Shown here piece after piece: positions 10,126 through 54,612 of a stretch of 64,000 nucleotides of DNA. Under the pieces are notes generated by a model. It was not told where the DNA came from. It searched no databases and worked only from the letters and a program-made list of their open reading frames with translations. A program made the position numbers and the translations under genes. The number at the start of each line of letters is the position of its first letter. The stretch's first letter is position 1. The DNA comes from Flavobacterium cyclinae (lineage in GTDB: Bacteria; Bacteroidota; Bacteroidia; Flavobacteriales; Flavobacteriaceae): positions 1,550,001 to 1,614,000 of the forward strand of contig NZ_CP089095.1 of NCBI RefSeq assembly GCF_021172145.1. The letters run 5' to 3'.

Positions 10126-10575
10126 ATGAAGTTAAGAAGTTTACATACTACAACAATACTAGATTTTTACGCACCTGATTACTCAACAGAATTGGAGCTT
10201 CCTTTTGTTGATGTAGGTATTAGTGCCGGTTTTCCTTCTCCTGCAGATGACTTTATCGAATTAAGAATCGACTTGAACAAAGAATTGATAAAACATAAAG
10301 ACAGTACATTCTTTGCGAAAGTAAAAGGTAATTCCATGAAAAACGCAGGTATTTTCGATGGTGATTTATTAATCATTGATAAGAGCTTAGAACCGCAAGA
10401 TGGTAAAATTGCTATTTGTCAAATAGATGGAGATTTTACAGTTAAAAGAATCAAAATAGAAAACGAAGTAGTTTGGTTAATTGCCGAAAATGAAGACTAC
10501 AAACCCATAAAAGTTACAGAAGAAAATGAACTAATGATTTGGGGAATCGTAATCCATAGCATTAAAACATTTTAG
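10126..10575 (+). CDS. umuD: UmuD-like S24 peptidase, DNA polymerase V accessory subunit
   Basis: A 149-residue LexA/UmuD-family protein. In the SOS response RecA filaments trigger self-cleavage of UmuD and the processed form joins UmuC in an error-prone polymerase. The expected cleavage bond is Ala34-Gly35 in SAGFPSPADD, with catalytic Ser70 in VKGNSMKNAG and Lys107 in FTVKRI. Length and motif spacing are normal. It is the first gene of an operon with an unknown 123-aa gene and umuC. It differs from the second copy at 24.8 kb by 11 residues, all outside the catalytic positions. Note Asn69 here versus Asp69 in the other copy, next to the nucleophile. Confidence 0.93.
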   Translation: MKLRSLHTTTILDFYAPDYSTELELPFVDVGISAGFPSPADDFIELRIDLNKELIKHKDSTFFAKVKGNSMKNAGIFDGDLLIIDKSLEPQDGKIAICQIDGDFTVKRIKIENEVVWLIAENEDYKPIKVTEENELMIWGIVIHSIKTF

Positions 10576-10986: not shown

Positions 10987-12246
10987 ATGTTTGCCTTAGT
11001 AGACTGCAACAACTTTTACGCCTCTTGTCAAAGAGTATTCGAACCACATTTAATTGGAAAACCTGTAGTAATACTTTCCAATAATGATGGTTGTGTTATT
11101 GCGCGTTCTAACGAAGCTAAAGCATTAGGCATTCCAATGGGAGCTCCTGCATTCGAATTCAAAAAACTATTCGAAGACAATAATGTATTTGTCTATTCTT
11201 CAAACTATGCCTTGTATGGTGACATGAGCAGCAGAGTAATGAACATCCTTGCAACCTACACACCGGAAATAGAAGTCTATAGTATTGACGAAGCTTTTCT
11301 AAAATTCGAAGGTTTTGAATTCTTTAACCTGGAAGAATACGGAATTAAAATTCAAAGAACCGTAACTAAAAATACAGGTATTCCAATCAGTGTAGGATTT
11401 GCACCAACAAAAGCACTAGCTAAAGTAGCCAATAAAATAGCAAAGAAGTTCCCTGAACGAACCAAAAGTGTCTATGTGATAGACAATGAAGAAAAGAGAA
11501 TAAAAGCTCTTAAATGGACTAAAATTGAAGATGTTTGGGGTATTGGTAGAAAACACGCTAAACGCTTACAGGCAGTTAATGTTTTTAATGCCTATCAATT
11601 CACTCAATTACACGATGATTGGGTAAGAAAAGAAATGGCAGTTGTAGGACTGAGATTAAAACACGAATTGGAAGGAAAACCAACATTGGATTTAGAAACT
11701 CCAAAGAGTAAGAAAATGATTGCTACAACAAGATCATTTGAAAAACCAATGACAAAATTGGAAGATGTTTCAGAGCGTATTGCAACATTCACAACTTCCT
11801 GTTCCGAAAAACTAAGAAGACAAAACAGTCATAGCAACATGATAATGGTTTTTCTTCATACCAACTATTTCAGAAAGGACCAACCACAATACTCCAGAAG
11901 TATTGTAATCAACACCGATTTCCCAACAAACTCAACAATAGAGCTAAACAAGTATGCACAAATAGGGCTAAAAGCAATTTTCAAAGAAGGCTACAATTAC
12001 AAAAAAGCAGGCGTAATAGTAATGGGTTTAACACCAAACGACCAAACTCAATTATCACTATTCAACACCTCAAATCCAAAGCATCAACCTTTAATGTCAG
12101 TAGTTGATAAACTTAATAGAGCATACGGCAAAAACAAAATCAAGTTCGCCAATCAATCCCTCGGCAGACAATGGAAAATGAAACAAGAAAAATTATCCAA
12201 ATCATATACAACTAGAATTGATGAAATAATTACAATTAAAATATAA
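10987..12246 (+). CDS. umuC: UmuC-like Y-family DNA polymerase, locus 1
   Basis: A 419-residue Y-family translesion polymerase subunit. The N-terminal catalytic domain opens MFALVDCNNFYASCQRVF with metal-ligand Asp6 and continues with PVVILSNNDGCVIARSNEAK. The second acidic pair, Asp101-Glu102, is in YSIDEAFLKF. The helix-hairpin-helix/thumb part follows (EDVWGIGRKHAKRL), then the little-finger domain. With UmuD' it would synthesise across damaged DNA and raise mutation rates. It is 12 residues different from the copy at 25.7 kb, with all differences after residue ~107, because the 5' part lies in a nearly identical tract. Its 3' end is partially duplicated downstream at 12934. Confidence 0.94.
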   Translation: MFALVDCNNFYASCQRVFEPHLIGKPVVILSNNDGCVIARSNEAKALGIPMGAPAFEFKKLFEDNNVFVYSSNYALYGDMSSRVMNILATYTPEIEVYSIDEAFLKFEGFEFFNLEEYGIKIQRTVTKNTGIPISVGFAPTKALAKVANKIAKKFPERTKSVYVIDNEEKRIKALKWTKIEDVWGIGRKHAKRLQAVNVFNAYQFTQLHDDWVRKEMAVVGLRLKHELEGKPTLDLETPKSKKMIATTRSFEKPMTKLEDVSERIATFTTSCSEKLRRQNSHSNMIMVFLHTNYFRKDQPQYSRSIVINTDFPTNSTIELNKYAQIGLKAIFKEGYNYKKAGVIVMGLTPNDQTQLSLFNTSNPKHQPLMSVVDKLNRAYGKNKIKFANQSLGRQWKMKQEKLSKSYTTRIDEIITIKI

Positions 12247-12281
12247 AAAAGTTGTATATATTTGATGATATTTACTAGTTG
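12143..12281 (+). repeat. umuC 3'-end direct repeat, copy A (intact gene)
   Basis: This 139-bp segment spans the last 34 codons and 35 bp beyond the umuC stop codon. It recurs ungapped at 12934-13072 with 10 mismatches by eye. The post-stop part includes a TATATTTG -7 promoter element at 12257-12264, placed to transcribe the following cargo gene. Confidence 0.85.
12257..12264 (+). promoter_or_regulatory. TATATTTG promoter element behind umuC
   Basis: It matches the Bacteroidota -7 consensus TAnnTTTG, about 42 bp before the next gene. The same element follows the umuC fragment at 13048-13055 and, in altered context, the second umuC at 26934-26941. Confidence 0.5.
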
Positions 12282-12306
12282 TGTGTAAGCTGAAAAAAAA
12301 TACTGT

Positions 12307-12846
12307 ATGATAAAAAACTATATTCATCTTAAGGATGTTAATAAAACAAAATTAAATTCTACAGTCACGGAATTGGTCGATTCAATGAAAATTGAACAGT
12401 CCGATATTTACAGTAACAATTCTGAAACTGAATTTATTGTAACCTTTCCGAGAGGTATCTCAAACGAACTTTTCATATTTTTTTATTGTGCGTTAATGGC
12501 ACCTGATTTGACTAATTCTAGAAATCTGAATGGATGGTTCTCTGCTAATGATGATATGACTCTGAATTTAAAGAATGGAGATTTTAGCAAATTTCAATCT
12601 TCTCAGTACTCTAAGCTAATAATGATTTTGCCTGACGGAGATGATAAAGGAAATATGCATCAATATGGAATTACAGAAAACGGAAAAGAAATACATTTTG
12701 GGATGGACGGAACTTATAAGGTTATGGAGAGTACAGAATATAAATATCAAAATCCAATTTCAAATCTATATGACTTTGAGAAAATTAATAGTATTGAGCG
12801 GAAAAAAGGATTTTTAGAAAAATTGAAAGTTAAATTAGGAATATAA
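12307..12846 (+). CDS. Unknown 179-aa cargo protein behind umuC
   Basis: A soluble protein I do not recognise. It contains ETEFIVTFPRGISNELFIFF and MHQYGITENGKEIHFGMDGT, with a mixed alpha/beta look and a Lys-rich C-terminus (KKGFLEKLKVKLGI). There is no signal peptide or catalytic motif. It is bracketed by umuC's 3' end on the left and a second copy of that 3' end on the right, so it appears to be an inserted unit. A degenerate GCGCGAATC palindrome and a GC-rich stretch follow it. Position suggests accessory cargo read from the promoter behind umuC. Confidence 0.65.
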   Translation: MIKNYIHLKDVNKTKLNSTVTELVDSMKIEQSDIYSNNSETEFIVTFPRGISNELFIFFYCALMAPDLTNSRNLNGWFSANDDMTLNLKNGDFSKFQSSQYSKLIMILPDGDDKGNMHQYGITENGKEIHFGMDGTYKVMESTEYKYQNPISNLYDFEKINSIERKKGFLEKLKVKLGI

Positions 12847-12893
12847 AAAGCCTACACACAACAATGTATAACCGCAATTACGGCCCCGCTCGT

Positions 12894-12910
12894 GCGCGAA
12901 TCTTTTCGCG
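12894..12910. repeat. Degenerate GCGCGAATCTTTTCGCG palindrome
   Basis: A variant of the element at 10010, lying in a short GC-rich stretch between the 179-aa cargo gene and the duplicated umuC tail. Confidence 0.45.
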
Positions 12911-12933
12911 TTCTTAAATATTTTCCCACTGTC

Positions 12934-13037
12934 AGTTCGCCAATCAATCCCTTGGCAGACAATGGAAAATGAAACAAGAAAAACTATCAAAATCCTACAC
13001 AACAAGAATTGATGAAATCATTACTATAAAAATTTAA
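12934..13037 (+). pseudogene. umuC: Duplicated 3' fragment of umuC
   Basis: This fragment encodes the last 33-34 residues of UmuC (FANQSLGRQWKMKQEKLSKS and onward) and its stop codon, without the rest of the gene. Compared with the umuC just upstream, every difference within the coding part appears synonymous, so the fragment was copied from a functional umuC allele rather than decaying in place. The match continues 35 bp past the stop to 13072, including the TATATTTG element. The arrangement suggests cargo insertion or recombination between alleles with different downstream genes. Confidence 0.85.
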
Positions 13038-13047
13038 AAAAGTTGTA

Positions 13048-13055
13048 TATATTTG
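13048..13055 (+). promoter_or_regulatory. TATATTTG promoter element in the duplicated umuC tail
   Basis: This is the second copy of the post-umuC element, 41 bp before the GTG of the next two-gene unit. It probably serves as that unit's promoter. Confidence 0.5.
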
Positions 13056-13095
13056 ATGATATTTACTAGTTGGCAGAAATATTAAAACACGAAAT

Positions 13096-13665
13096 GTGAA
13101 AAGAACAAATATAGAAGTTAAAAACCAATTTGATTTTTTCAATGAATTGGTTTACGAAGAAAAAATAATTCGTGAAAAATCGATAATTCTACAGCCAAAA
13201 AAGAGCAATATTTATTGGTCTGTTGGACAATCCGATATTCAACATAATACAATTAATGAAGAAATTGTATTTATGATTGAACAAAGTAAAAGAGACAATA
13301 AATATGGTATAAAGCTTCGTTGTCAAAATTTCATCAAAGAGCCTTTCTTTAGATTTGACTCTGATGGTCCTGCTCACAGAAATGAAAATCCGAAAATTCC
13401 TCTTGAAGAACAATCAGTCAAAACACCACATTTTAATTCGTTTGACGAGAATGGAAATTACATAGCATACCAAAACGAAACTTTAAAAAATGAAAATGAA
13501 GCTCAAATTATAGCAAATGATATAAATTTTGGTATTTCATTATTTTGTATGGAAACAAATTCAAAGTTAAGTGATAGAAATTTTCCGAATATAATTGATT
13601 CAATTCAAGAATTAGAATTTGTAGAAAAAAATAATATTAACTTTGACAATATTAATTTTGAATAA
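13096..13665 (+). CDS. Unknown protein, first gene of a two-gene cassette (DUF6978-like)
   Basis: A 189-residue soluble protein. GTG at 13096 is the likely start since no in-frame ATG lies near. The sequence includes GIKLRCQNFIKEPFFRFDSDGPAHRN and KTPHFNSFDENGNYIAYQ, recalling proteins listed as DUF6978 in which a PHFH-like motif follows a RFD segment; this naming is from memory and tentative. Its stop overlaps the ATG of the next gene by one base (TAATG), so the two proteins are coupled. It has its own promoter copy in the duplicated umuC tail and a strong hairpin element after the second gene, giving it the look of a mobile two-gene module, perhaps toxin-antitoxin or defence. Confidence 0.6.
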   Translation: MKRTNIEVKNQFDFFNELVYEEKIIREKSIILQPKKSNIYWSVGQSDIQHNTINEEIVFMIEQSKRDNKYGIKLRCQNFIKEPFFRFDSDGPAHRNENPKIPLEEQSVKTPHFNSFDENGNYIAYQNETLKNENEAQIIANDINFGISLFCMETNSKLSDRNFPNIIDSIQELEFVEKNNINFDNINFE

Positions 13666-14477
13666 TGGAAAATAAAATAGTCATAGAGCAAATAAAAAAA
13701 TCTTTTTGCAACTTAACAAGTTTCAAAGAAAGAGAAAATGCTCTTGAAATAATAACTGCATTTTCAACAATTAATAACAAATTTGTTTCAGTTTTTATAA
13801 CATTCACAAATCAGAAAATTGTTATAACTGATAGTGGTTGGATAGACCAAAACTATTATGAAACTCCTTATTTTGAAGAATCAGAAGATTTAATACGCAG
13901 AATAATTGCTTCTTATGCTTCAAATTTTAGAATAAAATCTACGCTTGATAAATCAGGCGTCGAATTCTATTACAAAATTTGTGAGAAAATAGAAGAAATT
14001 CCAAGTGCAGTTTTTGATTTAGCTAATTTTATTGTCGGTGCTGTCAATTCGTTTTGCATACAATACAAAGACGAAAAAGAAGAAAAAGAAAGAGAAACTT
14101 TTAGAAGTGACGCAAATACATTTTTAAAAATAAGCTATAATGAAGATGTAAAATTGAGACATTTTTTAGATGACTTCAAAAACATTAAGTTTAATGCAAT
14201 TATAACAAGAAAATCAAAATTGAATTTGATAACTTATGTTACAGGCTCAACACCAAATTATTTTGAAAACGACCTAAGAAAATCAATTGTTAACTTTGAG
14301 ATTGCGCAGAAATCAAAATATTTAGATTATATCGATGAAAGAATCACAATAATAAATGATAAATCTGAAGGATATTCTCCAGAAAAGTCTTCATCAATAT
14401 TTCAGCTTTTAAATGAAAAAACAACACGTGAACCAATTAAATGGTCTGAAAAAGAACGAATTTTGGAATACATATAA
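13665..14477 (+). CDS. DUF1828-like protein, second gene of a two-gene cassette
   Basis: A 270-residue soluble protein. The N-terminal ~120 residues contain FVSVFITFTNQKIVITDSGW, resembling DUF1828, in which a beta-hairpin ends in a (V/I)TD(S/G)G turn. The C-terminal half (residues ~145-245, FLKISYNEDVKLRHFLDD and SKYLDYIDERITIINDKSEG) would correspond to the often-associated DUF1829-like region. DUF1828 proteins are uncharacterised but are often found in accessory islands next to small partner genes. The start overlaps the upstream stop by 1 bp. Function is unknown; the family call is from motif memory only. Confidence 0.6.
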   Translation: MENKIVIEQIKKSFCNLTSFKERENALEIITAFSTINNKFVSVFITFTNQKIVITDSGWIDQNYYETPYFEESEDLIRRIIASYASNFRIKSTLDKSGVEFYYKICEKIEEIPSAVFDLANFIVGAVNSFCIQYKDEKEEKERETFRSDANTFLKISYNEDVKLRHFLDDFKNIKFNAIITRKSKLNLITYVTGSTPNYFENDLRKSIVNFEIAQKSKYLDYIDERITIINDKSEGYSPEKSSSIFQLLNEKTTREPIKWSEKERILEYI

Positions 14478-14486
14478 AATACTTCT

Positions 14487-14617
14487 GCCAACACACGTTT
14501 GGCGCAATTGCGAATTTTTCGGTAAATTCACGATTACATTTCGCAAGAAATTTTATCTTTAACAGAAAATAATCAGTTCCGAAGTTCGCAACTGACGCCA
14601 AGCGTGGGAACGTTAGC
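14487..14617. repeat. attC-like imperfect inverted-repeat element
   Basis: GCCAAC at the left and GTTAGC at the right bracket inner arms GTTTGGCG and CGCCAAGC, and further in TTGCGAA and TTCGCAA. The order of outer 6-7-mers, inner arms and a variable core is like integron attC sites (RYYYAAC...GTTRRRY), although the right core is imperfect. It sits exactly behind the two-gene cassette. It could instead be a lineage-specific palindromic element. Confidence 0.45.
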
Positions 14618-14761
14618 AGCAAGTTGACAAGAAACCCGAATCAAATACACGAAATGAAAATAACAGATGGATTCAATTTTGGGATATCAACTTATTTTTA
14701 AAATAATAGCTCAATTTGTAATTATTTTTATTTTTTGTAAAAATATACTACTTTTACAACG

Positions 14762-24740: not shown

Positions 24741-24756
24741 TTAATAACTATTTTTA

Positions 24757-24797
24757 CAACATTACTATTTTCTATTACAATACTTACTTAATTTTGT
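24757..24797 (+). promoter_or_regulatory. umuD promoter/operator block, locus 2
   Basis: This is the counterpart of 10079-10119 with two mismatches. The -7 element TAATTTTG is at 24789-24796, 7 bp before the ATG. Surrounding sequence is unrelated, which makes selection on the block itself likely. Confidence 0.55.
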
Positions 24798-24803
24798 AGA
24801 ACT

Positions 24804-25253
24804 ATGAAGTTAAGAAGTTTACATACTACAACAATACTAGATTTTTACACGCCTGATTTCTCAACAGAATTGGAGGTTCCATATGTTGATGTAGGTATTA
24901 GTGCCGGATTCCCTTCTCCTGCAGATGACTTTATCGAATTAACAATCGACTTAAACAGAGAATTAATAAAACATAAAGACAGTACTTTTTTCGCTAAAGT
25001 AAAAGGGGATTCCATGAAAAACGCAGGTATTTTCAATGGTGATTTACTAATAATTGATAAAAGCTTAGAACCACAAGATGGTAAAATAGCTATTTGTCAA
25101 ATAGATGGAGATTTTACAGTAAAAAGAATCAAAAAAGAAAACGACATAGTTTGGTTAATAGCCGAAAATGAAGACTACAAACCCATAAAAGTCACCGAAG
25201 AAAACGAACTAATGATTTGGGGAATTGTAATCCATAGCATTAAAACATTTTAG
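24804..25253 (+). CDS. umuD: UmuD-like S24 peptidase, locus 2
   Basis: A 149-residue paralogue of the protein at 10.1 kb with the same Ala34-Gly35 cleavage bond, Ser70 (VKGDSMKNAG) and Lys107 (FTVKRI). It differs at 11 positions, including Thr16, Phe19, Val25, Tyr27, Asp69 and Asn78. Asp69 before the nucleophile Ser is the commoner residue in the family (G-D-S-M), so this copy looks the more canonical. It is followed by the identical 123-aa gene and umuC. The two UmuD proteins could form heterodimers, which is inference. Confidence 0.93.
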   Translation: MKLRSLHTTTILDFYTPDFSTELEVPYVDVGISAGFPSPADDFIELTIDLNRELIKHKDSTFFAKVKGDSMKNAGIFNGDLLIIDKSLEPQDGKIAICQIDGDFTVKRIKKENDIVWLIAENEDYKPIKVTEENELMIWGIVIHSIKTF

Positions 25254-25259
25254 TTAGTT

Positions 25260-25631
25260 ATGGATAGATTTAATTTAATTATCAATCATTTAGAAAGAAT
25301 AAAATCCAAAACAGCTAGTAAAGAAGATTATAAATTTATTGAGGATATTATCAAAATAGAAGCAGCAAATTACAATACATTTTCAAAGCTTGTTTACGAT
25401 ATTTTTCTCTTTTTTATTCAGGATGTAAAAGATTCAAATTACACATTTGAGGCTTATAAATCTTGGTATATCAAAACGAAAGAATTAGAAATGTTTTGGG
25501 ATGGTCGAGATAGTTATCTTATACTTTGGGATATTAGTAACGGAGATAGAAAAACTCTCAAAATAGAAAGTTCCGATATTACTAACTTTAAATTAATTGA
25601 AGAATACTTAGAAATTATTTCCAAAAACTGA
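25260..25631 (+). CDS. Unknown 123-aa protein between umuD and umuC, locus 2
   Basis: Identical at protein and nucleotide level to 10582-10953 and in the same operon position, while the flanking umuD and the later part of umuC have diverged. The identical tract extends from the last ~27 bp of umuD into the first ~300 bp of umuC, which points to recent gene conversion rather than selection on this gene alone. No domain is recognised: it is a soluble, helical, 123-residue protein with a WYIKTKELEMFWDGRDS centre. Confidence 0.75.
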   Translation: MDRFNLIINHLERIKSKTASKEDYKFIEDIIKIEAANYNTFSKLVYDIFLFFIQDVKDSNYTFEAYKSWYIKTKELEMFWDGRDSYLILWDISNGDRKTLKIESSDITNFKLIEEYLEIISKN

Positions 25632-25658
25632 ACACTAGTAACTGAACACTGAACACTA
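25628..25658 (+). repeat. ACTGAACACT intergenic microrepeat, locus 2
   Basis: Identical to 10950-10980; it lies inside the gene-conversion tract between the unknown gene and umuC. Confidence 0.6.
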
Positions 25659-25664
25659 TATAAA

Positions 25665-26924
25665 ATGTTTGCCTTAGTAGACTGCAACAACTTTTACGCC
25701 TCTTGTCAAAGAGTATTCGAACCACATTTAATTGGAAAACCAGTAGTAATACTTTCCAATAATGATGGTTGTGTTATTGCGCGTTCTAACGAAGCTAAAG
25801 CATTAGGCATTCCAATGGGAGCTCCTGCATTCGAATTCAAAAAACTATTCGAAGACAATAATGTATTTGTCTATTCTTCAAACTATGCCTTGTATGGTGA
25901 CATGAGCAGCAGAGTAATGAACATCCTTGCAACCTACACACCGGAAATAGAAGTCTATAGTATTGATGAAGCTTTTCTAAAATTCCAAGGATTTGAATTC
26001 TTTAACCTTGAAGAGTACGGAATTAAGATTCAAAAGACCGTTACCAAAAACACAGGTATCCCAATCAGTGTAGGATTTGCACCAACAAAAGCATTAGCTA
26101 AAGTAGCCAATAAAATAGCAAAGAAGTTCCCAGAAAGAACAAAAAGTGTCTATTTGATAGATACAGAAGAAAAAAGAATAAAAGCTCTTAAATGGACTAA
26201 AATTGAAGATGTTTGGGGTATTGGAAGAAAACACGCTAAACGCTTACAAGCATTAAATGTTTTTAATGCATATCAATTCACTCAATTACACGATGATTGG
26301 GTTAGAAAAGAAATGGCAGTAGTAGGGTTGAGGTTAAAACACGAATTGGAAGGAAAACCAACATTGGATTTAGAAACTCCAAAGAGTAAAAAAATGATTG
26401 CTACAACAAGATCATTTGAAAAACCCATTACTAAAATTGAAGATATTTCCGAACGCGTAGCAACGTTCACAACTTCTTGTGCCGAAAAACTAAGAAGACA
26501 AAACAGTCATTGTAACATGATAATGGTTTTTCTTCACACCAATTATTTCAGAAAGGACCAACCTCAATACTCAAGAAACATAGTAATCAACACCGATTTC
26601 CCAACAAACTCCACAATAGAGCTAAACAAATACGCTCAAATTGGATTAAAAGCAATATTCAAAGAAGGCTACAATTACAAAAAGGCAGGAGTAATAGTAA
26701 TGGGATTAACTCCAAATGACCAAACCCAATTATCACTATTCAACACCTCAAATCCAAAACATCAGCCTTTAATGTCAGTAGTTGATAAACTTAATAGAGC
26801 CTACGGCAAAAACAAAATCAAGTTCGCCAATCAATCCCTCGGCAGACAATGGAAAATGAAACAAGAAAAACTTTCAAAATCCTACACCACAAGAATTGAT
26901 GAGATTATAACAATTAAAATTTAA
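25665..26924 (+). CDS. umuC: UmuC-like Y-family DNA polymerase, locus 2
   Basis: A 419-residue second copy of the translesion polymerase, with Asp6, Asp101 and Glu102 conserved (MFALVDCNNFY, YSIDEAFLKF). Twelve residues differ from the first copy, starting at position ~108 (Gln versus Glu in LKFxGF). The changes are mostly conservative (V/L, I/V, S/A), so both copies are under purifying selection. A TATATTTG-like element lies just after the stop (26934-26941), but the long post-stop segment shared by the first locus and its tail fragment is not preserved here. Confidence 0.94.
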   Translation: MFALVDCNNFYASCQRVFEPHLIGKPVVILSNNDGCVIARSNEAKALGIPMGAPAFEFKKLFEDNNVFVYSSNYALYGDMSSRVMNILATYTPEIEVYSIDEAFLKFQGFEFFNLEEYGIKIQKTVTKNTGIPISVGFAPTKALAKVANKIAKKFPERTKSVYLIDTEEKRIKALKWTKIEDVWGIGRKHAKRLQALNVFNAYQFTQLHDDWVRKEMAVVGLRLKHELEGKPTLDLETPKSKKMIATTRSFEKPITKIEDISERVATFTTSCAEKLRRQNSHCNMIMVFLHTNYFRKDQPQYSRNIVINTDFPTNSTIELNKYAQIGLKAIFKEGYNYKKAGVIVMGLTPNDQTQLSLFNTSNPKHQPLMSVVDKLNRAYGKNKIKFANQSLGRQWKMKQEKLSKSYTTRIDEIITIKI

Positions 26925-27033
26925 AAAAATTATTATATTTGATAATAAAATAAATCAATACAAAACTTTCGCCAATCTTGCCAATTTGGAATAAAAGTAG
27001 TCTGAAAGTTTCGCATATAAACAAGTTGTAGGC

Positions 27034-27041
27034 TATATTTG
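27034..27041 (+). promoter_or_regulatory. TATATTTG promoter element before the toxin-like lipoprotein
   Basis: It matches TAnnTTTG, 42 bp before the ATG at 27084. No clear upstream TTG at the right spacing was found. Confidence 0.45.
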
Positions 27042-27083
27042 CCCAACTAACTTAAAAAAAATGTAACCTAAACAACGTTCAAA

Positions 27084-28475
27084 ATGAAAATTAAATTAAA
27101 TCAATTAAGTAAAATTACTTTATTTTTATTTTCTTTACTTCTGCTGAGTTGTGAGAAAGACGAAAATTCTCCTTCCAATATAGAAAAAAACATTAAACGT
27201 GAAGTAAAATTATCTGAAATTCCTAATCTTTTTAATTCAATTCAAAACAGACAACATAACATTAATCATGCAAAAAATTCTACAGACTATTTAAGCCTTA
27301 TAAACACCGAGAGCATTACAGAGATTTCTCAAAGTAATGGTAATAAAACTTATACTTTTTCTCTAAATATAAATGAAACTGACACCTTAACAAACCTTGT
27401 TGCAATTGAAAACAATAATGGTTTTGATTATCATTTGGTACAATATTCTTCATCTCAATTAGAACAATGGAAAGATGATATTCATAATCATCAAAATACA
27501 AATGTATTAGTCGATGTTAATAACATTCCTTTAAGTAGCTATACAAACTCAACAGAAAACATTTGTACTGAAACTGGTTGGACTTGTCCTTCTGGTCAAC
27601 ATAATTTAAATAGCTTAGCTCATTGTGTTTATCCATTTATTGAATGGAGTATGTCTACTTATACAGTTCCTTGTGACGATAATTCAGGTGGTGGAAGTAG
27701 TTCTGGCAGCAATAATCCTAATCCTATACCAGAACCATACACTGAACCTGTATTTCCAACTTTAAGTCCTGAAATTGCTATTTTTATTGCTAATCTTTCT
27801 CCTACACAAACTATTTGGTGGAATAATGCTGATAATAACGTAAAAAATGATATCCTAAATTATTTAACACAAAATATAAAGAATGGCGAAATTAAAACCG
27901 AAGCGCAACAGTTTATAAATGAGTTGATTGGAGTATTAGCAGCTAATCCACAAACTATATATACATCAACAGATTATCCAGGAAAAAATAATGGAATGCC
28001 TTTTGAATGGTGGAAAGATAATGATTATATGACTTCCAATTTTGAAGTTTTAGAAGAAGACCCAAATCCAGCTGAATTACTCGCTTTTAGCTTATTTCCA
28101 GACAAAGCATTATTACATATTCAGAATTCTACAACTGCTCTTAACAAAACTCAACAGTTAGTTCTTAATAACACTCTAACAGGTATTGAAGACGGAAGAG
28201 CCGACGCATTTAGACATGCTTATTGGAATGCATTAGGTACTGCTGAATTTGGTTCAAATATTACTCAAATATTTACTGATGCTCATGAAGCATATTCAAG
28301 TGGTTTACCAAGACAAATGGATTTACATAATAACCTAAAAGGTCGAGAAAAAGCTTTAATAATGTCATTTAATTTTCTAACAAGTGATTCCGTTATAGCT
28401 GATTCAATTTTAATTGAGGTTTATGTTGGACATTTACTTTTTATACTTAATGGAGTTTTAACACCTACTGACTAA
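27084..28475 (+). CDS. Lipoprotein with toxin-like C-terminal domain (DUF6973-like)
   Basis: A 463-residue lipoprotein with lipobox LLLLSC (Cys23). A variable ~170-residue region follows, then a Cys-containing segment (ENICTETGWTCPSGQHN, CVYPFIEW, YTVPCDD), a GGGSSSGSNNPNPIPEP linker, and a C-terminal domain. That domain carries GRADAFRHAYWNALGTAEFG, AHEAYSSGLPRQMDLHNN and GREKALI, which resembles DUF6973, a domain I recall at the C-termini of secreted polymorphic toxins with conserved D-A-F-R-H and D-L-H-N. The His and Asp residues could be catalytic. A small exported protein gene follows 11 bp later, as toxin-immunity pairs often do. Toxin function is inference. Confidence 0.65.
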   Translation: MKIKLNQLSKITLFLFSLLLLSCEKDENSPSNIEKNIKREVKLSEIPNLFNSIQNRQHNINHAKNSTDYLSLINTESITEISQSNGNKTYTFSLNINETDTLTNLVAIENNNGFDYHLVQYSSSQLEQWKDDIHNHQNTNVLVDVNNIPLSSYTNSTENICTETGWTCPSGQHNLNSLAHCVYPFIEWSMSTYTVPCDDNSGGGSSSGSNNPNPIPEPYTEPVFPTLSPEIAIFIANLSPTQTIWWNNADNNVKNDILNYLTQNIKNGEIKTEAQQFINELIGVLAANPQTIYTSTDYPGKNNGMPFEWWKDNDYMTSNFEVLEEDPNPAELLAFSLFPDKALLHIQNSTTALNKTQQLVLNNTLTGIEDGRADAFRHAYWNALGTAEFGSNITQIFTDAHEAYSSGLPRQMDLHNNLKGREKALIMSFNFLTSDSVIADSILIEVYVGHLLFILNGVLTPTD

Positions 28476-28486
28476 TCTAAAATCCT

Positions 28487-28843
28487 ATGAAAACAAAATT
28501 TATACTATTATTTGCAGCAATTCTCATTATTATTCTTTGCTTCTTTTATTTTTTAAAACCTGATTTTTCAAGTAAAGTTTATAACCAAAAAGAGTGGAAC
28601 AATAATCCAAACATTAGGATAAATATGGCTAACAATATAATTGAGAGCAGAATGCTAATTGGTAAAGATTCTATTGAAATACTGAATGAATTAGGCAAAT
28701 ACCATAATGTACCAATAAAGAATAAATGGAAATATTTATTAGGATATAAAGGATATTTAAGGGCTGAATTCTATTTTTTAACAATAAGTTTTAATAATGG
28801 TAAAGTGGATGAAGTTGATATTGAAACAGTAGAAGAAAATTAA
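28487..28843 (+). CDS. Small membrane-anchored BamE-like protein, possible partner or immunity protein
   Basis: A 118-residue protein with an N-terminal membrane helix or signal (FILLFAAILIIILCFFYFL). The soluble part has RMLIGKDSIEILNELGKYHN, then YLLGYKG and FLTISFNNGKVDEVDI, the loop-strand pattern of the SmpA/BamE-like fold (LIGKS...LG...Y.LG...I.F..GKV). It lies 11 bp after the toxin-like lipoprotein, so co-transcription is likely. BamE-like folds also appear in inhibitors and immunity proteins. No direct evidence separates these roles. Confidence 0.6.
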   Translation: MKTKFILLFAAILIIILCFFYFLKPDFSSKVYNQKEWNNNPNIRINMANNIIESRMLIGKDSIEILNELGKYHNVPIKNKWKYLLGYKGYLRAEFYFLTISFNNGKVDEVDIETVEEN

Positions 28844-29249
28844 TACAGCCTACAACAACAGTTTGCTTCAATGGCTACTTCCGGATTTTCCTACGGAAAA
28901 TCCTCTGCTCAATGGAATGTTTTGTTATATTTGTAATGGCTTGGTGTTAGTGCAACGCCACTGAGAGCAAGCCGCAGAACGTTAGTGGCAATGACAGGAC
29001 GACTACCCGAACCGACACTTCGACACCTGACCAGACAACAGTCCGACACAGAAAAAAATAAAAAATACCCAACGCACAGGAAAGGAAATTTTTTGCCAAC
29101 GCATTTGGCACATTTGGTTTTTCCCGACACACAAACCAACGCTTCAAAAAACCAAAAGAGCCAAGCCGACCAAAGCCCACCCACCACCCCAAACTATTTT
29201 TAAAACATTTTCTAACTTTGTAACGAAATAACGTGAGTAAGAAATAAAT
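28844..29249. other. Module boundary with hairpin element and AC-rich leader
   Basis: No gene is supported in these 406 bases. At 28883-28903 GGATTTTCC and GGAAAATCC form a perfect 9-bp hairpin. Around 28946-28990 GTTAGTG occurs twice, the second copy starting AACGTTAGTGGCAATG. From there to about 29195 the strand is strikingly C/A-rich and poor in G, unlike neighbouring DNA. The right-hand end (GTTA...CAATG..AGGACGAC) is closely similar to 34411-34432, so the copper module between them is bounded by related sequences. A -7 promoter element is at 29213-29220. Confidence 0.55.
29213..29220 (+). promoter_or_regulatory. TAACTTTG promoter element of the copper module
   Basis: A match to TAnnTTTG 29 bp before the regulator ATG, at the end of the C/A-rich segment. 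Confidence 0.5.
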
Positions 29250-29813
29250 ATGACAACACTCTTTATTAAAAATATGGTTTGCAACCGTTGTATTATGGTG
29301 GTGCAAAATGAATTGGATAAATTGGACTTTGATGTAAAGAATATCAAATTAGGGGAAGTTATGCTTGCCAAAGAACCCACACCCGAAGAAAAAAGCAATT
29401 TAGATAAGGTTTTAATTCCATTGGGTTTTGAAATCATTGACGATAAAAAAAGCCGTATCATTGAGCAGATAAAGAATATAATTATTGACTTGGTACATCA
29501 TCAGGACAACGATATTAAAACCAATCTTTCAGATGTATTAAGCAGTAAGTTATACCACGATTATAATTATTTATCCAACCTTTTTTCAGAAGTAGAGGGT
29601 ACAACCATTGAAAAATATTTTATTGCCCAGAAGATAGAAAAGGTAAAAGAACTATTGGTATATGATGAATTGTCTTTGAGTGAAATTGCCTTTCGTCTGA
29701 ACTATTCGAGTGTGGCGTATTTAAGCAATCAATTCAAAAAAGTAACAGGGCTAACACCGAGCCATTTCAAACAAATAAAGGTAGATAAAAGGAAGCCGGT
29801 AGACAGTTTGTAA
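29250..29813 (+). CDS. AraC-type regulator with N-terminal HMA-like metal-sensing domain
   Basis: A 187-residue protein. Residues 1-70 resemble a heavy-metal-associated fold with a Cys pair (IKNMVCNRCIMVV, Cys11 and Cys14), and residues ~95-185 are an AraC-type double helix-turn-helix (LSEIAFRLNYSSVAYLSNQF, then KVTGLTPSHFKQIK). Fusion of a Cys-x2-Cys metal domain to a DNA-binding domain suggests a one-component copper or soft-metal sensor. It sits 85 bp upstream of copA and probably controls it. Such proteins are common beside Bacteroidota copper genes; direct metal sensing is inferred. Confidence 0.85.
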   Translation: MTTLFIKNMVCNRCIMVVQNELDKLDFDVKNIKLGEVMLAKEPTPEEKSNLDKVLIPLGFEIIDDKKSRIIEQIKNIIIDLVHHQDNDIKTNLSDVLSSKLYHDYNYLSNLFSEVEGTTIEKYFIAQKIEKVKELLVYDELSLSEIAFRLNYSSVAYLSNQFKKVTGLTPSHFKQIKVDKRKPVDSL

Positions 29814-29898
29814 ATCTTACAAATCAATCCCAAAATTCCACAATAGCCACCACTATTATAATTGCCAACTTTGCAGTGTTAATTAAAACAATCGCAAA

Positions 29899-32316
29899 AT
29901 GGCAGCAAATAATAATAAAGAAATCATCTATCTTCCGTTAGAAGATGTCGAAAGCGAACATTGTGCTTTAATCGTTGAAAAAGGATTGGCACAGGTTAAG
30001 GGAGTAGAAACCCACAAAGTAGAACTAAACAACCGCAGAGCAGCTATAACAGTAACAGATACCGAAGCAGTAGGTGAAGCGGTTAAAGCTATAAAAGAGT
30101 TGGGTTATGGCGTTTCCACTGTAAAAAATTCCTTTCCTGTTTTGGGTATGACTTGTGCATCTTGTGCAGGAAGTGCCGAAAGTATTGTAAAGTATCAGGA
30201 GGGCGTTGTAAATGCTTCCGTAAACTTTGCAACAGGTAATCTTACCGTTGAATACCTGCCCAATATGACCGATGCCACCAAGCTACAAAAAGCGGTACAG
30301 TCTATCGGTTATGATTTGCTGATTGAAGATGAAACCAAACAGCAGGAAACATTAGAAGCAATCCACGAAAAGAAATTCAAACAATTAAAGACGAAAACCA
30401 TTTGGGCAGTTGTCTTATCCTTACCTGTTGTTGTAATTGGAATGTTTTTTATGGATATGCCTTATGGCAATGAAATTATGTGGGCATTCTCTACACCCGT
30501 TGTATTATGGTTGGGCAGGGACTTTTTTACAAATGCGTGGAAACAAGCCAAACACCGTTCTGCCAATATGGACACGCTTGTAGCGTTGAGTACAGGTATT
30601 GCCTATATTTTTAGTGTGTTCAATATGTTGTTTGCCGACTTTTGGCATCAGAGAGGATTACACGCACACGTTTATTTTGAAGCAGCGGCTGTCATTATAG
30701 CTTTTATTCTGTTGGGTAAATTATTGGAAGAAAAAGCCAAAGGAAATACATCATCAGCCATTAAAAAACTAATGGGATTGCAACCCAAAACAGTTATCGT
30801 AATACAAGCAGACGGAACAGAAAAACAAACTGCTATCGAAGATGTGAACACAGGCGATATTATCTTGGTAAAACCAGGTGAAAAAATTGCAGTGGACGGT
30901 ATGGTTACTTCAGGTAATTCCTATGTTGATGAAAGTATGTTGAGTGGTGAACCTGTACCTGTATTGAAAAAAGAAAACGAAAAAGTATTTGCAGGAACGA
31001 TAAACCAAAAAGGCAGCTTTCAGTTTGAAGCCGTTAAGGTTGGAAAGGAAACAATGCTTGCTCAGATTATCAAAATGGTACAAGATGCACAAGGAAGCAA
31101 AGCACCTGTACAAAAATTGGTAGATAAGATTGCGGGTATCTTTGTCCCCGTAGTTATCGGCATTGCCATTCTCACATTTATATTATGGTTCTTTTTAGGA
31201 GGCGATAACGGAGTTGTACAGGGATTATTAGCAGCCGTTACCGTATTGGTTATTGCTTGTCCTTGTGCGTTGGGATTGGCTACCCCTACGGCAATTATGG
31301 TAGGCGTTGGCAAAGGTGCTGAAAAAGGTATTTTAATAAAAGATGCTGAAAGCCTTGAATTAGCCAAAAAAGTAGATGCAATCATATTAGACAAAACAGG
31401 AACAATTACAGAGGGCAGACCACAGGTAACAGGCATTCAATGGCTCAACAATGATGATACCGCAAAAGATATTCTTTTGAGTATCGAAAAGCAATCAGAA
31501 CACCCTTTGGCAGAAGCCGTGGTAAAACATTTGGACGGTGTTACAGCTACTCCATTATCAGACTTCGATAGCATTACAGGTAAAGGAGCAAAAGCCAATC
31601 ATAATAACGAAACCTATCTTGTAGGCAATAAAAAACTATTGGCAGAAAACAACATCAATATTCCAAACCAATTACAACAACAAGCCGATGAATGGGGCAA
31701 ACAATCGAAAACCGTTATTTGGTTTTCAGACAGCAAACAAGCTCTATCTGTAATTGCTATTTCTGATAAGATAAAAGAAACATCGGTAGCAGCCATAAAG
31801 GAAATGCAGGAAATGGGTATTGATTTGTATATGCTTACAGGCGATAACGAAGCCACAGCAAAAGCCATAGCAGAGCAGACAGGCATCAGACACTATAAAG
31901 CCGAAGTATTGCCACAACACAAAGCCGATTTTGTAAAAGAATTGCAACAACAAGGCAAAACTGTTGCAATGGTTGGGGACGGTATCAATGACAGTACCGC
32001 ATTGGCAACAGCAGATGTGAGTATAGCGATGGGTAAAGGTTCGGATATAGCAATGGACGTAGCCAAAATGACAATCATTTCATCAGATCTTACCAAGATT
32101 CCACAAGCAATTAGGCTTTCAAAACAAACTGTAGCTACTATTAAACAAAACTTGTTCTGGGCATTTATCTATAACCTTATCGGTATTCCAATTGCAGCAG
32201 GTATTCTCTACCCGATAAATGGATTTTTACTTAATCCAATGATTGCAGGAGCAGCAATGGCATTGAGTTCTGTGAGCGTGGTAAGTAACAGTTTGCGGTT
32301 AAAATGGAAAAAGTAA
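29899..32316 (+). CDS. copA: Copper-exporting P1B-ATPase CopA
   Basis: An 805-residue Cu(I) exporter. Residues ~8-70 are a degenerate HMA-like domain lacking CxxC (EDVESEHCALIVEKG), followed by a functional HMA with GMTCASCAGSAE (Cys86, Cys89). Then come eight membrane helices, the actuator SGEP, the transmembrane site C454-P-C456 (IACPCALGLATPTAIM), phospho-Asp498 (DKTGTITEG), H535-P, and GDGINDSTAL, where Ser-Thr replaces the usual Ala-Pro. The last helices have YNLIGIPIAAGILYP and MALSSVSVVSNSLRL, which carry the Cu(I)-coordinating Asn/Tyr/Met/Ser of the P1B-1 subgroup. It follows the AraC-type regulator. Confidence 0.94.
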   Translation: MAANNNKEIIYLPLEDVESEHCALIVEKGLAQVKGVETHKVELNNRRAAITVTDTEAVGEAVKAIKELGYGVSTVKNSFPVLGMTCASCAGSAESIVKYQEGVVNASVNFATGNLTVEYLPNMTDATKLQKAVQSIGYDLLIEDETKQQETLEAIHEKKFKQLKTKTIWAVVLSLPVVVIGMFFMDMPYGNEIMWAFSTPVVLWLGRDFFTNAWKQAKHRSANMDTLVALSTGIAYIFSVFNMLFADFWHQRGLHAHVYFEAAAVIIAFILLGKLLEEKAKGNTSSAIKKLMGLQPKTVIVIQADGTEKQTAIEDVNTGDIILVKPGEKIAVDGMVTSGNSYVDESMLSGEPVPVLKKENEKVFAGTINQKGSFQFEAVKVGKETMLAQIIKMVQDAQGSKAPVQKLVDKIAGIFVPVVIGIAILTFILWFFLGGDNGVVQGLLAAVTVLVIACPCALGLATPTAIMVGVGKGAEKGILIKDAESLELAKKVDAIILDKTGTITEGRPQVTGIQWLNNDDTAKDILLSIEKQSEHPLAEAVVKHLDGVTATPLSDFDSITGKGAKANHNNETYLVGNKKLLAENNINIPNQLQQQADEWGKQSKTVIWFSDSKQALSVIAISDKIKETSVAAIKEMQEMGIDLYMLTGDNEATAKAIAEQTGIRHYKAEVLPQHKADFVKELQQQGKTVAMVGDGINDSTALATADVSIAMGKGSDIAMDVAKMTIISSDLTKIPQAIRLSKQTVATIKQNLFWAFIYNLIGIPIAAGILYPINGFLLNPMIAGAAMALSSVSVVSNSLRLKWKK

Positions 32317-32354
32317 AGCATTGAACCAAAATAGTAACGGATAAAAAGAAAAAT

Positions 32355-33296
32355 ATGGGACAAGAACACAACCATTCGCACAGTTCGAACAAAAAAACCT
32401 TAACCATCAGCCTTGTTATTATTACGACTTATATGGCAGTAGAGGTTATCGGTGGTTTGATTACAAACAGCCTTGCTTTATTGGCAGATGCAGGGCATAT
32501 GCTGAGCGATGCTATTTCATTGTTCATTGCCTTAATGGCTTTTAAATTCAGCAGTAAAGTAGCCGATTATGGTAAAACGTATGGATATAAACGGTTTGAA
32601 ATATTAGCTGCGATTATCAATGGAGCAACGCTGATACTGATTTCAGTTTATATTATATATGAAGCAATCGAACGTTTCCAAAATCCGCCCGAAATTCAAT
32701 CCTACGGAATGCTCATTATTGCATTTATAGGCTTATTGGTCAATGTGCTTGTAGCTTGGATAATGATGCGTGGAGCTGATGTAAAGGAAAACCTCAATAT
32801 GCGTGGAGCGTACCTGCACGTCATCAGTGATATGTTGGGTTCGGTTGGTGCCATCATCGCAGCTTTGCTCATTCTATTCTTTGGTTGGAGTTGGGCAGAC
32901 CCTCTAGCAAGTGTTATCGTTTCCATATTGGTATTGCGAAGCGGATACTTAGTTACCAAATCATCGGTACACGTACTTATGGAGGGTACACCCAATAATG
33001 TAGAAATAGAAAAAGTAACGGACAAAATCTTAAAAACAGACGGTATTCAAAACATTCACGACTTACATATTTGGACAATTACAAGCGGACTGAACGCTTT
33101 GACTTGCCACGCAGTTGTGAATGAAAAAATGACGATTGAAGAAAGCGAAAAAATGCTTCGTAAAATAGAACACGACTTGGAACACTTAAACGTTCATCAC
33201 GTAACCATTCAGTTGGAAACACCTGCACACAAACACGATAATTCAATATTGTGCAGCGTAAAGGCAGAACCAACAGCACACGAACATCATCACTGA
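32355..33296 (+). CDS. Cation diffusion facilitator (CzcD/ZitB-like)
   Basis: A 313-residue CDF antiporter exporting Zn or similar divalent ions from the cytoplasm in exchange for protons. It has a His-rich N-terminus (GQEHNHSHSSNKK), six membrane helices, and the intramembrane metal site from two helices: ALLADAGHMLSDAIS (H-x3-D) and YLHVISDMLGSVGA (H-x3-D). The C-terminal cytoplasmic domain includes IHDLHIWTITSG, and the protein ends in His-rich HEHHH. It lies 39 bp after copA, so the module mixes Cu and Zn/divalent handling. Confidence 0.93.
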   Translation: MGQEHNHSHSSNKKTLTISLVIITTYMAVEVIGGLITNSLALLADAGHMLSDAISLFIALMAFKFSSKVADYGKTYGYKRFEILAAIINGATLILISVYIIYEAIERFQNPPEIQSYGMLIIAFIGLLVNVLVAWIMMRGADVKENLNMRGAYLHVISDMLGSVGAIIAALLILFFGWSWADPLASVIVSILVLRSGYLVTKSSVHVLMEGTPNNVEIEKVTDKILKTDGIQNIHDLHIWTITSGLNALTCHAVVNEKMTIEESEKMLRKIEHDLEHLNVHHVTIQLETPAHKHDNSILCSVKAEPTAHEHHH

Positions 33297-33396
33297 TTTC
33301 AGTAAATCTCACAAATCAAACAATAAATAACACAACAACGCAGAATGATAATGTACTGAAATTTGCAGTATCAAATATCAATTAAAATTTTAAAAA

Positions 33397-33759
33397 ATGA
33401 TAGTAAGAAAAACAGCAATAGCAGCACTTGCATCAATAGCGATGTTTGTTGCATCTTGTGGAAACAGTAACAACCACAACCAACACGATGGCCACGACCA
33501 CGCAACCGAAACAGCCGTAAGCAGTACGGAAACACAAAAAGCCAATCGTAATGAAAATGGCGAATTGATTGATGCAGAAGGTAATATCATTACAGGTTGT
33601 CCCGGACATAAAGAAATGATAGGCTCGCAAGGCGATATGTGTCCGAAATGTGAGTATATGACAATGATACCTATCACTTGGGATATTGACGGAGTAGATA
33701 CCGTAAGAGTTACAAGTTTGCCCGACTATAATCCACCTGCCGACAAACTCAAAAAATAA
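33397..33759 (+). CDS. Periplasmic metal-binding lipoprotein
   Basis: A 120-residue lipoprotein with lipobox MFVASC (Cys22). A His-rich stretch (NHNQHDGHDHATE) is followed by a small four-Cys-like domain, GCPGHKEMIGSQGDMCPKCE and YMTMIP, related to the heavy-metal-binding domains on Cus adaptors. It lies 100 bp after the CDF gene and 37 bp before the CopZ-like gene. Its likely job is to hold metal in the periplasm after export. There is no pump adaptor in this module, so it may cooperate with the RND systems elsewhere in the window. Confidence 0.8.
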   Translation: MIVRKTAIAALASIAMFVASCGNSNNHNQHDGHDHATETAVSSTETQKANRNENGELIDAEGNIITGCPGHKEMIGSQGDMCPKCEYMTMIPITWDIDGVDTVRVTSLPDYNPPADKLKK

Positions 33760-33795
33760 AAACAATCATTAAATAACAATTCAAAATTCAATAAA

Positions 33796-34014
33796 ATGGA
33801 AAATAAAGAATTTCAATTCAAAACCAATCTCAACTGTGGAGGTTGTGTATCAAAAGTAAAGTCAGATTTAGATAATGCCGAAGGAGTCTGCCATTGGAAG
33901 GTGGACACGGATAATGCCGATAAAATCCTTACCGTGAGTTCAAAAGGAATTACGGAAGAAGAAGTAATTGCTATCGTTAAAAGCAAAGGTTTTAAAGCTG
34001 AACCAATAGCGTAA
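33796..34014 (+). CDS. copZ: CopZ-like HMA metallochaperone
   Basis: A 72-residue single HMA domain (FKTNLNCGGCVSKVKSDLDN, Cys14 and Cys17) with the beta-alpha-beta-beta-alpha-beta pattern and an ending typical of chaperones (IAIVKSKGFKAEPI). No signal peptide is present, so it acts in the cytoplasm, most likely delivering Cu(I) to the CopA ATPase upstream. It is the last gene of the copper module; a boundary element resembling the left one follows. Confidence 0.88.
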   Translation: MENKEFQFKTNLNCGGCVSKVKSDLDNAEGVCHWKVDTDNADKILTVSSKGITEEEVIAIVKSKGFKAEPIA

Positions 34015-34807
34015 AGACTTTTGAATATCGGGTAGTCAAAATAGTTATTCCGATAATAAATCCAACACACAGGCAAGCACATTACGCATTTTGGCAACCA
34101 CACAAAGCCAATAAAAATGCGTAAAGAGCTTGCCTTTTCCCAACCCGAGAAAAAATTTCCTTCCCCCTCTTTTTTTTTTCAGCCGACACACAACCCAATA
34201 GACAACGGACGACCAATAGCCACAGCCACTAACATCAGTTTTCCGCAATGCAGGCTGACGTTGAGTTTTGAGCATTTGTAATTCTAATGTCGCTATTTGG
34301 CGTTTGATGTTGCTGAAAAGATTAAATTAGCAAATCAAACGCCAATAGCTTGCAGTAGTGCTTGGTTGAAAATTTGTTTTTCAAACACCTGCACTGCGTA
34401 AAGCTGGTGGGCGTTATAGCCAATGGTAGGACGACCGTTCACAAGACGACTGACCGACCAAAATTTAAACATAAACACAAAGACATACCATTTTGACAAG
34501 TGACCAACATACAGACCATATTTTAAACGAGCAACGAGTAAGCCGACACTCTTTGCCGACCCTTCTGTATTTTTTATTTTTTCCTACCACACTTTTTTTT
34601 AATTCAATTATAGCCAGACACACATTGCACACATTTGTCTTTGCCTGCCATCACACAATGCCAGCCCGAAGGCAAAGCCAAAAGAGTGCAATCTTCCACG
34701 CTCTGTTCAAGAAACGAGTTACTTAACTTGACAGCAATCATTAATTACTTTGATAACCATCAGTTTATTAAGGTAACTTTATAAACATATTAGTAAATAA
34801 TTCAAAA
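34015..34807. other. Gene-free boundary region with hairpins and AC-rich sequence
   Basis: No gene is supported in ~790 bases. There is a long inverted repeat at 34292-34349 and a further arrangement at about 34350-34440 (TTGCAGTAGTGC ... GGTGGGCGTTATAGCC). The motif GTTA...CAATG..AGGACGAC at 34411-34432 matches the left boundary at 28981. Two C/A-rich, G-poor stretches (about 34160-34230 and 34430-34720) resemble the one at 28990-29195. A near-consensus -7 element (TTACTTTG) lies near 34745, about 55 bp before the CopB-type gene. Confidence 0.55.
34292..34349. repeat. Long imperfect inverted repeat
   Basis: GCTATTTGGCGTTTGAT and ATCAAACGCCAATAGC pair over 16 bp with one bulged base around a 25-base loop. 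There is no T tract, so it looks like a recombination or REP-type element rather than a terminator. Confidence 0.7.
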
Positions 34808-54102: not shown

Positions 54103-54132
54103 ATGCTTTTTTTTAACACATAGGCTCATAGT

Positions 54133-54459
54133 TTTTACACCGAGCTTCACGGAGTTTCTTTTACTTGTATTGCGTTGAGAGAGCCACACAGAGCGTTTCA
54201 CTTATTTGTGTTTTCTAACCACACAGTTTGTCATGCTGGAAAGCATCTTTTGGATAAGTGATTGATGATAGGTGATGGGTTGGCTTTTGCTTCGTAAAGC
54301 TTTGTGTTCTTTGTGCTTTCTTAGTGCGCCTTGTGGTTAAGATTTTACACCGAGCTTCACGGAGTTTCTTTTTATTTTGATTGCGTTGAGAGAGCTACAC
54401 AGAGCGTTCCACTTATTTGAGTTTTCTAACCACACAGTTTGTCATGCTGGTAAGCATCT
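54133..54459. repeat. Two ~116-bp direct repeats in non-coding DNA
   Basis: Copy 1 (54133-54248) and copy 2 (54343-54459) share TTTTACACCGAGCTTCACGG, GCGTTGAGAGAGC, ACACAGAGCGTT and a TTTGTCATGCTGG end, with a few substitutions and one indel. The unit spacing is 210 bp. No open frame is shared. The AGCTTCACGGAG and TGTCATGCTGG motifs resemble short dispersed repeats of Bacteroidota genomes. Confidence 0.75.
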
Positions 54460-54612
54460 CTTTTGATTTTTACTCTTGTTTTTGTTCTTGAACTTGCCTT
54501 TTTTTATCCTCGTACGGTTTTCCTCATTTCTATTTTTTTTACTTTACGTATCTTAGCTGTTGTATTTTCCTACGTATAAATACTTGGTTTGAAAATCAGG
54601 TATTTTTACGGG

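Follow-up and report, generated by a model that had tools for sequence, protein, structure and literature searches.

Behind a complete umuC gene (umuC-1) in the window, the whole 64,000-nucleotide stretch of Flavobacterium cyclinae analysed here, cargo genes begin at a short site that recurs in the genus. We consider it highly probable that this is an attI-type site 3' of umuC belonging to an integron-like system, and that attI has spread; a second umuC tail in the window is most likely what a deletion left behind. This reading builds on the sites, cassette geometry, attC structure, genomic distribution and isolated umuC tails documented below. The umuC end had been proposed as a docking site in an earlier sequence-only reading of this DNA, and the data support it, with the cargo beginning at the attI-like site behind umuC.

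The repeated umuC end and the attI-like site

In the window, positions 12143-12281 and 12934-13072 form a 139-bp repeat with 92.8% identity, the copies lying 791 bp apart (BLAST E 5e-52) with a single gene (12307-12846) between them, as the sequence-only reading had described. Its claims about the differences and the box were also confirmed: 10 codons differ in the coding part, 10/10 synonymously, the 35 bp 3' of both umuC stops show no differences, and the promoter-like TATATTTG lies directly 3' of both stops, that of umuC-1 and that of the second tail. This tail matches umuC-1 at 90/100 nt, umuC-2 at 92/100 and the five closest foreign alleles at 87-91. Since it is no closer to umuC-1 than to umuC-2 or the foreign alleles, it represents a third allele, in agreement with the different umuC allele proposed before. 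The gene between the copies has no family match in Pfam, NCBIfam or PADLOC, neither the cassette-1 protein nor the umuC region matched plasmid records, and an Rfam search of the window from 10 to 35 kb returned nothing at the gathering score.

Table 1. Positions of the umuDC operons, attI-like sites and cassettes in the window, and of the recombinase gene
Feature	Position	Strand	Basis and remarks
umuD-like S24 peptidase, operon 1	10126..10575	+	PF00717, NF007621
umuC-1, complete	10987..12246	+	best NCBIfam match NF002955 UmuC, 390.8 bits (cut-off 431)
attI-like site 1 behind umuC-1, with TATATTTG box	12246..12278	+	crossover G12278/T12279; same sequence at G000:C1:1176432
Cassette 1: gene 12307-12846 and left attC half	12279..12933	+	10-nt reverse complement of own start at 12853
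Cassette 1 attC boxes: R'' CACACAAC, L'' TATAACCGCAATTACGG	12855 (R'')	+	right half missing
Isolated umuC tail, codons 386-419 and stop, third allele	12933..13037	+	sequence comparison
attI-like site 2	13037..13069	+	crossover G13069/T13070
Cassette 2: genes 13096-13665 and 13665-14477, complete attC 14485-14619	13070..14612	+	attC 92.8 bits, E 3e-19
Cassette 2 R'' TTCTGCCAAC	14483	+	reverse complement of own start
umuDC operon 2, umuC-2 at 25665-26924	24744..26947	+	94.2% over 2206 bp to operon 1; complete
Second-type attI-like site behind umuC-2	26934..27025	+	crossover G27025/T27026; resembles (by eye) sites behind shorter recombinases
Cassette 3: genes 27084-28475 (DUF6973) and 28487-28843, attC 28849-28988	27026..28981	+	PF22322; attC 47.4 bits
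Cassette 3 R'' AGCCTACAAC	28847	+	
Cassette 4, 5.4 kb: AraC-type regulator, copper-type P-type ATPase, CDF transporter	28982..34413	+	attC 34226-34420, 42.4 bits
Cassette 4 R'' GCCACTAAC	34225	+	reverse complement of own start
Tyrosine recombinase, 580 aa	G000:C1:1176483-1178222		PF13495 and PF00589; ~385 kb from the window umuC site

The site comprises about 35 bp behind the umuC stop and reads AAAAAAGTTGTATATATTTGATGATATTTACTA|GTT, with the cargo starting at GTT. When the tail and its following bases were compared with the rest of the genome, three umuC copies were recovered, plus two copies of the last 38-45 bp only; one of these two lies about 20 bp 3' of the stop of a tyrosine recombinase gene and is followed by cassettes with attC-like ends. 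With up to 3 mismatches allowed in a 30-bp core, 53 copies were found in 29/398 genus genomes, and the reversed pattern gave 0. The long recombinase immediately precedes 17 copies and recombinase tails precede 2; another 7 follow umuC or a umuC tail, and tblastn detected neither gene upstream of the other 27. Over 51 main-type sites, conservation drops at the crossover from 1.71 bits per position before to 0.57 after, and the sequence behind the core differs from site to site, except for two G127 sites with an identical cassette start. In the named long-recombinase loci (26, with 25 examined and the incomplete L180 left out), a site occurs within 177 bp in 25/25 (0-6 mismatches). Cargo starting at the site, as expected of attI in an integron, was found in these 25/25 named loci and at the 53 sites in 29/398 genomes.

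A site that is A+T-rich and carries a promoter-like box could be the product of chance or of ordinary terminator or promoter conservation behind umuC, but we give this practically no credence, given the reversed-pattern control (0 vs 53 sites in 398 genomes), the end of main-type conservation at GTT and the pairing rule described below. The attI-type reading departs from the sequence-only one over the umuC tail, which had been taken as the recombining segment: the crossover sits in the attI-like sequence 3' of the stop. That sequence is also found behind the recombinase (17/53) and behind other sequence (27/53). The umuC tail is not the recombining part; it is a passenger with ragged 5' ends.

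A second type of site is longer, shows direct repeats and lies behind shorter recombinases (15/23 loci used), the repeats and the motif order in these short-type sites being judged by eye. Its conservation is nearly flat across the crossover (0.75 vs 0.63 bits). This type also follows umuC-2 in the window and the umuC genes of G253, G208 and G007. The umuC-2 site is in a genome without the short recombinase and the G032 site in one without the long recombinase (E <= 1e-40), so that, with the matching enzyme absent, some sites look like orphans. Elsewhere in the F. cyclinae genome, TIR (ThsB-like) and caspase-like genes lie behind the site at 1487297 (-) of L022 (G000:C1:1480000-1492000); they are a candidate defence cargo, and the cassette rule does not hold there.

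Each tail leaves TATATTTG ahead of the cargo, fitting TAnnTTTG, which we take to be the Bacteroidetes -7 box. The motif is present within 140 nt in 66/73 sites, with 7.9 expected, but the main-type search pattern itself contains it. The box being part of the core pattern, only the rows outside the main type test it independently; among rows labelled short it was found within 140 nt in 14/21, and at the umuC-2 site it lies 91 nt 5' of the crossover.

Cassette geometry and attC

A cassette of an integron starts with bases that are part of its own attC, and these have to be complementary to the R'' box 3' of the cassette gene. We examined this pairing rule in a set drawn from the 53 pattern sites, 15/23 short-recombinase loci, L056-L059 (long-recombinase loci with diverged sites, counted under the label "short") and two umuC-linked short-type sites; with one duplicate taken out, 66 sites of both types had at least 500 bp. 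Eight short loci were left out, L061 and L066 for too little DNA behind the site, L075, L078 and L079 for GATG instead of GTT, and L064, L067 and L077 for having no recognised site. A 9-nt reverse-complement match to the cassette start was found in 43 of the 66 sites (swapped starts: mean 0.7, maximum 3.2), and in 14/66, including the umuC-linked G240 and G352, the rule fails even at 7 nt. At 8 nt it holds in 21/21 named long-recombinase loci with enough DNA, where swapped starts would give 1.4.

In the window, the rule holds over 10 nt for cassettes 1, 2 and 3 and over 9 nt for cassette 4. No plausible R'' partner was found for the start behind cassette 2 (14612), and the start behind cassette 4 (34413) has a 9-mer partner inside an ATPase gene, where the attC model gives no match. 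Cassette 4 is itself unusually large, with metal-transport genes packed as a single cassette.

Most of the attC-like elements that follow the genes measure 126-137 nt. Their covariation is 0.783 vs 0.192 in shuffled sets (0/500; 24 elements, none from the window, 19 pairs), but the training elements were selected for having a stem and the pair counts lean that way, so independent checks weigh more. Outside the training set, the covariance model gave 92.8 bits for the window attC at 14485 and 89.7 bits for the attC of the recombinase array. This model was used in place of a hand-written attC scanner, which returned several candidates at shuffle level beside real ones.

In the named loci, 50/51 attC matches are oriented as the recombinase and attI, and 49 are downstream of the recombinase. 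Matches (E <= 1e-4) were obtained in 87/101 genomes, with a median, among the best 33 per genome, of 18 in recombinase-positive (n=54) vs 3 in recombinase-negative genomes (n=47; p 4e-8). Genomes without any match number 2/54 in the positive group vs 12/47 in the negative one, and 18/47 recombinase-negative genomes still have at least 5. In the minus strand of G000:C1:1138908-1143763 there are six matches in 4.9 kb (two weak), with none of the four attI pattern sites near; this is a cassette array apart from the recombinase.

The recombinase and its relation to known systems

The best NCBIfam match of the 580-aa recombinase is the integron integrase TIGR02249 (210.8 bits, under the curated cut-off of 265), followed by the XerA-type NF040815 (197.7 bits), and structure comparison gave 140.6 bits for XerA vs 132.6 for IntI4. 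Nine relatives reach 183-222 bits with TIGR02249, NF040815 being the best match in 8/9, and seven short-type recombinases score 195-229 bits with NF040815, three of them above the cut-off of 220. By these scores the enzyme falls between integron integrases and XerA. The IntI-specific insertion is absent: the 68 residues of VchIntIA (2a3v 179-246) face 26 of the recombinase (470-495), about 42 fewer, and the alignment to XerA runs in a single stretch. A predicted model of low to moderate confidence (mean pLDDT 73, pTM 0.34) has no extra helix at 475-492. The N-terminal ~285 aa (L021:12369-13223) have no Pfam match, and three similar small alpha/beta units are predicted there with the same confidence values. 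Residues R426, K451/K453, H516, R519, H542 and Y551 are invariant in 18 recombinase sequences, and we presume that this R-K-H-R-H-Y set is catalytic. In a search of the phylum, homologues were found in 75/247 genomes and 50/121 genera. The Flavobacterium-trained model found attC in just 3/12 of the phylum loci scanned (~3.5 kb each), and generality beyond the genus is therefore weakly supported.

In the mechanism that we favour, this recombinase, ~385 kb away from the window site, would join the folded attC of circular cassettes to double-stranded attI. We infer that it is the agent of cassette entry. Cassettes would enter at CTA|GTT, 3' of the TAnnTTTG box within or beside attI, which would put each new gene behind a probable promoter and the umuDC operon. 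Putative SOS induction of umuDC carrying on into the cassettes is plausible, and both the promoter and umuDC transcription probably matter for them. The attI site would have spread through the genus in copies that bring along ragged fragments of the preceding gene, umuDC operons being one recurrent carrier.

Several features are shared with sedentary integrons as given in the available text of PMC9024848: a tyrosine recombinase beside attI, entry at G|TT, an attC of the form R''-L''-loop-L'-R', a promoter-like box near attI, and cassettes that share an orientation, most of those in the window being made up of unknown genes. In contrast to those, the enzyme here is without the IntI insertion and in its long type bears the ~285-aa N-terminal extension, recombinase and cassettes run the same way, and attI copies are found far off, behind umuC and other sequences. 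In the parts of PMC9024848 and PMC8138268 at hand, integron integrases are marked by an extra domain tied to the handling of folded attC. With the IntI insertion absent, and with attI, folded attC and the pairing of cassette start and R'' box present, we call the system an integron variant, one that would work like an integron functionally but falls outside the strict definition on the additional domain. The XerA-type family NF040815, named "site-specific tyrosine recombinase/integron integrase", shares the one-stretch alignment, but here attI-like sites and attC cassettes lie behind the recombinase genes.

The rulB elements of Pseudomonas, as far as the accessible text of PMC4542609 goes, are alike in that cargo linked to a recombinase has an insertion hot spot in an SOS polymerase operon of the umuC type. 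There the whole element is inside rulB with a GAT repeat and, in that text, no attI found, whereas umuC-1 here is intact and the cargo starts 32 bp after its stop at attI. According to the available part of the 2022 survey, Bacteroidetes proper have one complete integron, in Salinibacter ruber (PMC9024848), and older surveys, likewise in the parts at hand, count Bacteroidota or the Bacteroidetes/Chlorobi group as carriers of integrons or intI. We found no account of the present system in the text available from the literature searched (PMC8618304 and PMC2426708 included), most subscription papers and all preprints being outside the search.

The system is common in one genus and combines attI, attC and the pairing rule with a recombinase lacking the IntI insertion, which makes it testable whether the extra domain is needed. 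Integron finders rely on that domain, and IntegronFinder would probably miss this enzyme. Dispersed attI behind an SOS polymerase operon would be a new route to the spread of captured genes. The system may also explain attC-like cassettes without a known integrase. One example is from Riemerella, a member of Flavobacteriales: aph(3')-IVb of R. anatipestifer is taken up independently of homology and has a 140-bp attC-like end, but no recombinase or attI is described in the accessible text (PMC13148043). The arrays, if active, speak against part of the view of Smyshlyaev et al. on the integron-integrase insertion, as stated in the available portion of that work.

Isolated umuC tails and the origin of the second tail

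A umuC survey gave 34 matches of at least 74% identity in 33/396 genomes, and the two of the window plus 30/32 others were read. At these 30 other loci, a clear site was seen in 7 cases and a decayed one in 1 (G237); 20 lack a site, and 2 have too little DNA to judge. All umuC genes of at least 97% identity (7/7: the window twice, G032, G164, G173, G240, G253) are followed by a site, which is present too behind umuC of G208 and G007. Instead of the same cargo in fixed order behind every umuC, the eleven umuC-linked sites, two of them tail-borne (window 13042 and G352), have eleven different first cassettes, matching the variable downstream genes that the sequence-only reading had anticipated. 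The cassette starts differ again at three more tail-borne sites (L201, L202, L203).

That reading had also looked to isolated umuC tails elsewhere, and umuC tails do occur without the gene, with at least nine cases in at least seven genomes; their first codons range from 336 to 401, and they run to the stop or close to it. Some of nine such tails are decayed. Judged by eye, attI behind the nine is clear in 5 (window, L201, L202 first, L203, L204), degenerate in 2 and absent in 2. The clear attI behind tails and the scattered start codons indicate a 3' side that tends to be fixed by attI and a ragged 5' side, and we suggest that stray tails are places where the landing site outlived the gene.

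In the window, cassette 1 keeps R'' and L'' of its attC and the right half is absent, with no L' or R' before 12934 and no match of the attC model there. At ~12933 the sequence switches to codon 386 of the third allele, without homology to umuC at the joint. Most likely, the tail is what remains of a second, neighbouring platform of umuDC, attI and cassette. In the simplest account, an illegitimate deletion would have removed the upstream part of that platform, fusing codon 386 of its umuC to the attC loop of cassette 1 and keeping its downstream attI with its cassette.

The repeat might instead have been made by homologous recombination or gene conversion between umuDC copies, with no site-specific system involved, and the window does hold two such operons, 94% identical, in the same orientation and 14.7 kb apart. 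We regard this as very improbable: the tail matches neither umuC copy clearly better than foreign alleles, its 5' joint is without homology to umuC, and it adjoins attC-loop sequence that derives from neither copy, while the pairing rule and the attI copies that follow the recombinase or lie in 27 further contexts would be left unexplained.

A stronger competitor, although we rate it as unlikely, is a mobile unit that ends in attI (12279-13069, made up of the gene, the half attC, the tail and attI); its circle would insert into another attI and so stack units that each end in a tail plus attI. The same crossover sequence bounds the unit on both sides, G352 has on contig 18 four serial sites with a common non-coding upstream tail, and two sites 1266 bp apart on contig 8 have the same upstream tail. 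Against this, the window junction was unseen in 395 other genomes among the few candidates scored in each, the truncated attC half is equally explained by deletion, and class 1 integrons recombine attI with attI inefficiently. Slightly less doubtful in our view, and held only tentatively, is a wider reading in which flavobacteria would have a separate integron lineage built on XerA-like enzymes that lack the IntI insertion, with a network of dispersed attI, SOS-linked umuDC operons as preferred docks and attI x attI moves; one enzyme might then serve many attI, and cassettes might end in attI plus a captured gene tail. The deletion remnant remains the origin that we prefer for the window tail.

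Serial cargo units, each behind a common upstream tail and attI, were seen in L122 (the contig 18 locus, which also has a REP-like palindrome besides its sites) and L119 (the contig 8 locus), an architecture like that of the window. Palindrome halves GCTCGTGC/GCACGAGC are found up to 90 nt upstream of 3/9 isolated tails (window 12888, L202, L203); for the GCTCGTGC palindrome 0.01 would be expected at tails, but the motif was chosen post hoc and serves as a lead only. Elsewhere in the window, positions 54130-54255 and 54340-54467 form a 128-bp direct repeat with 91% identity.
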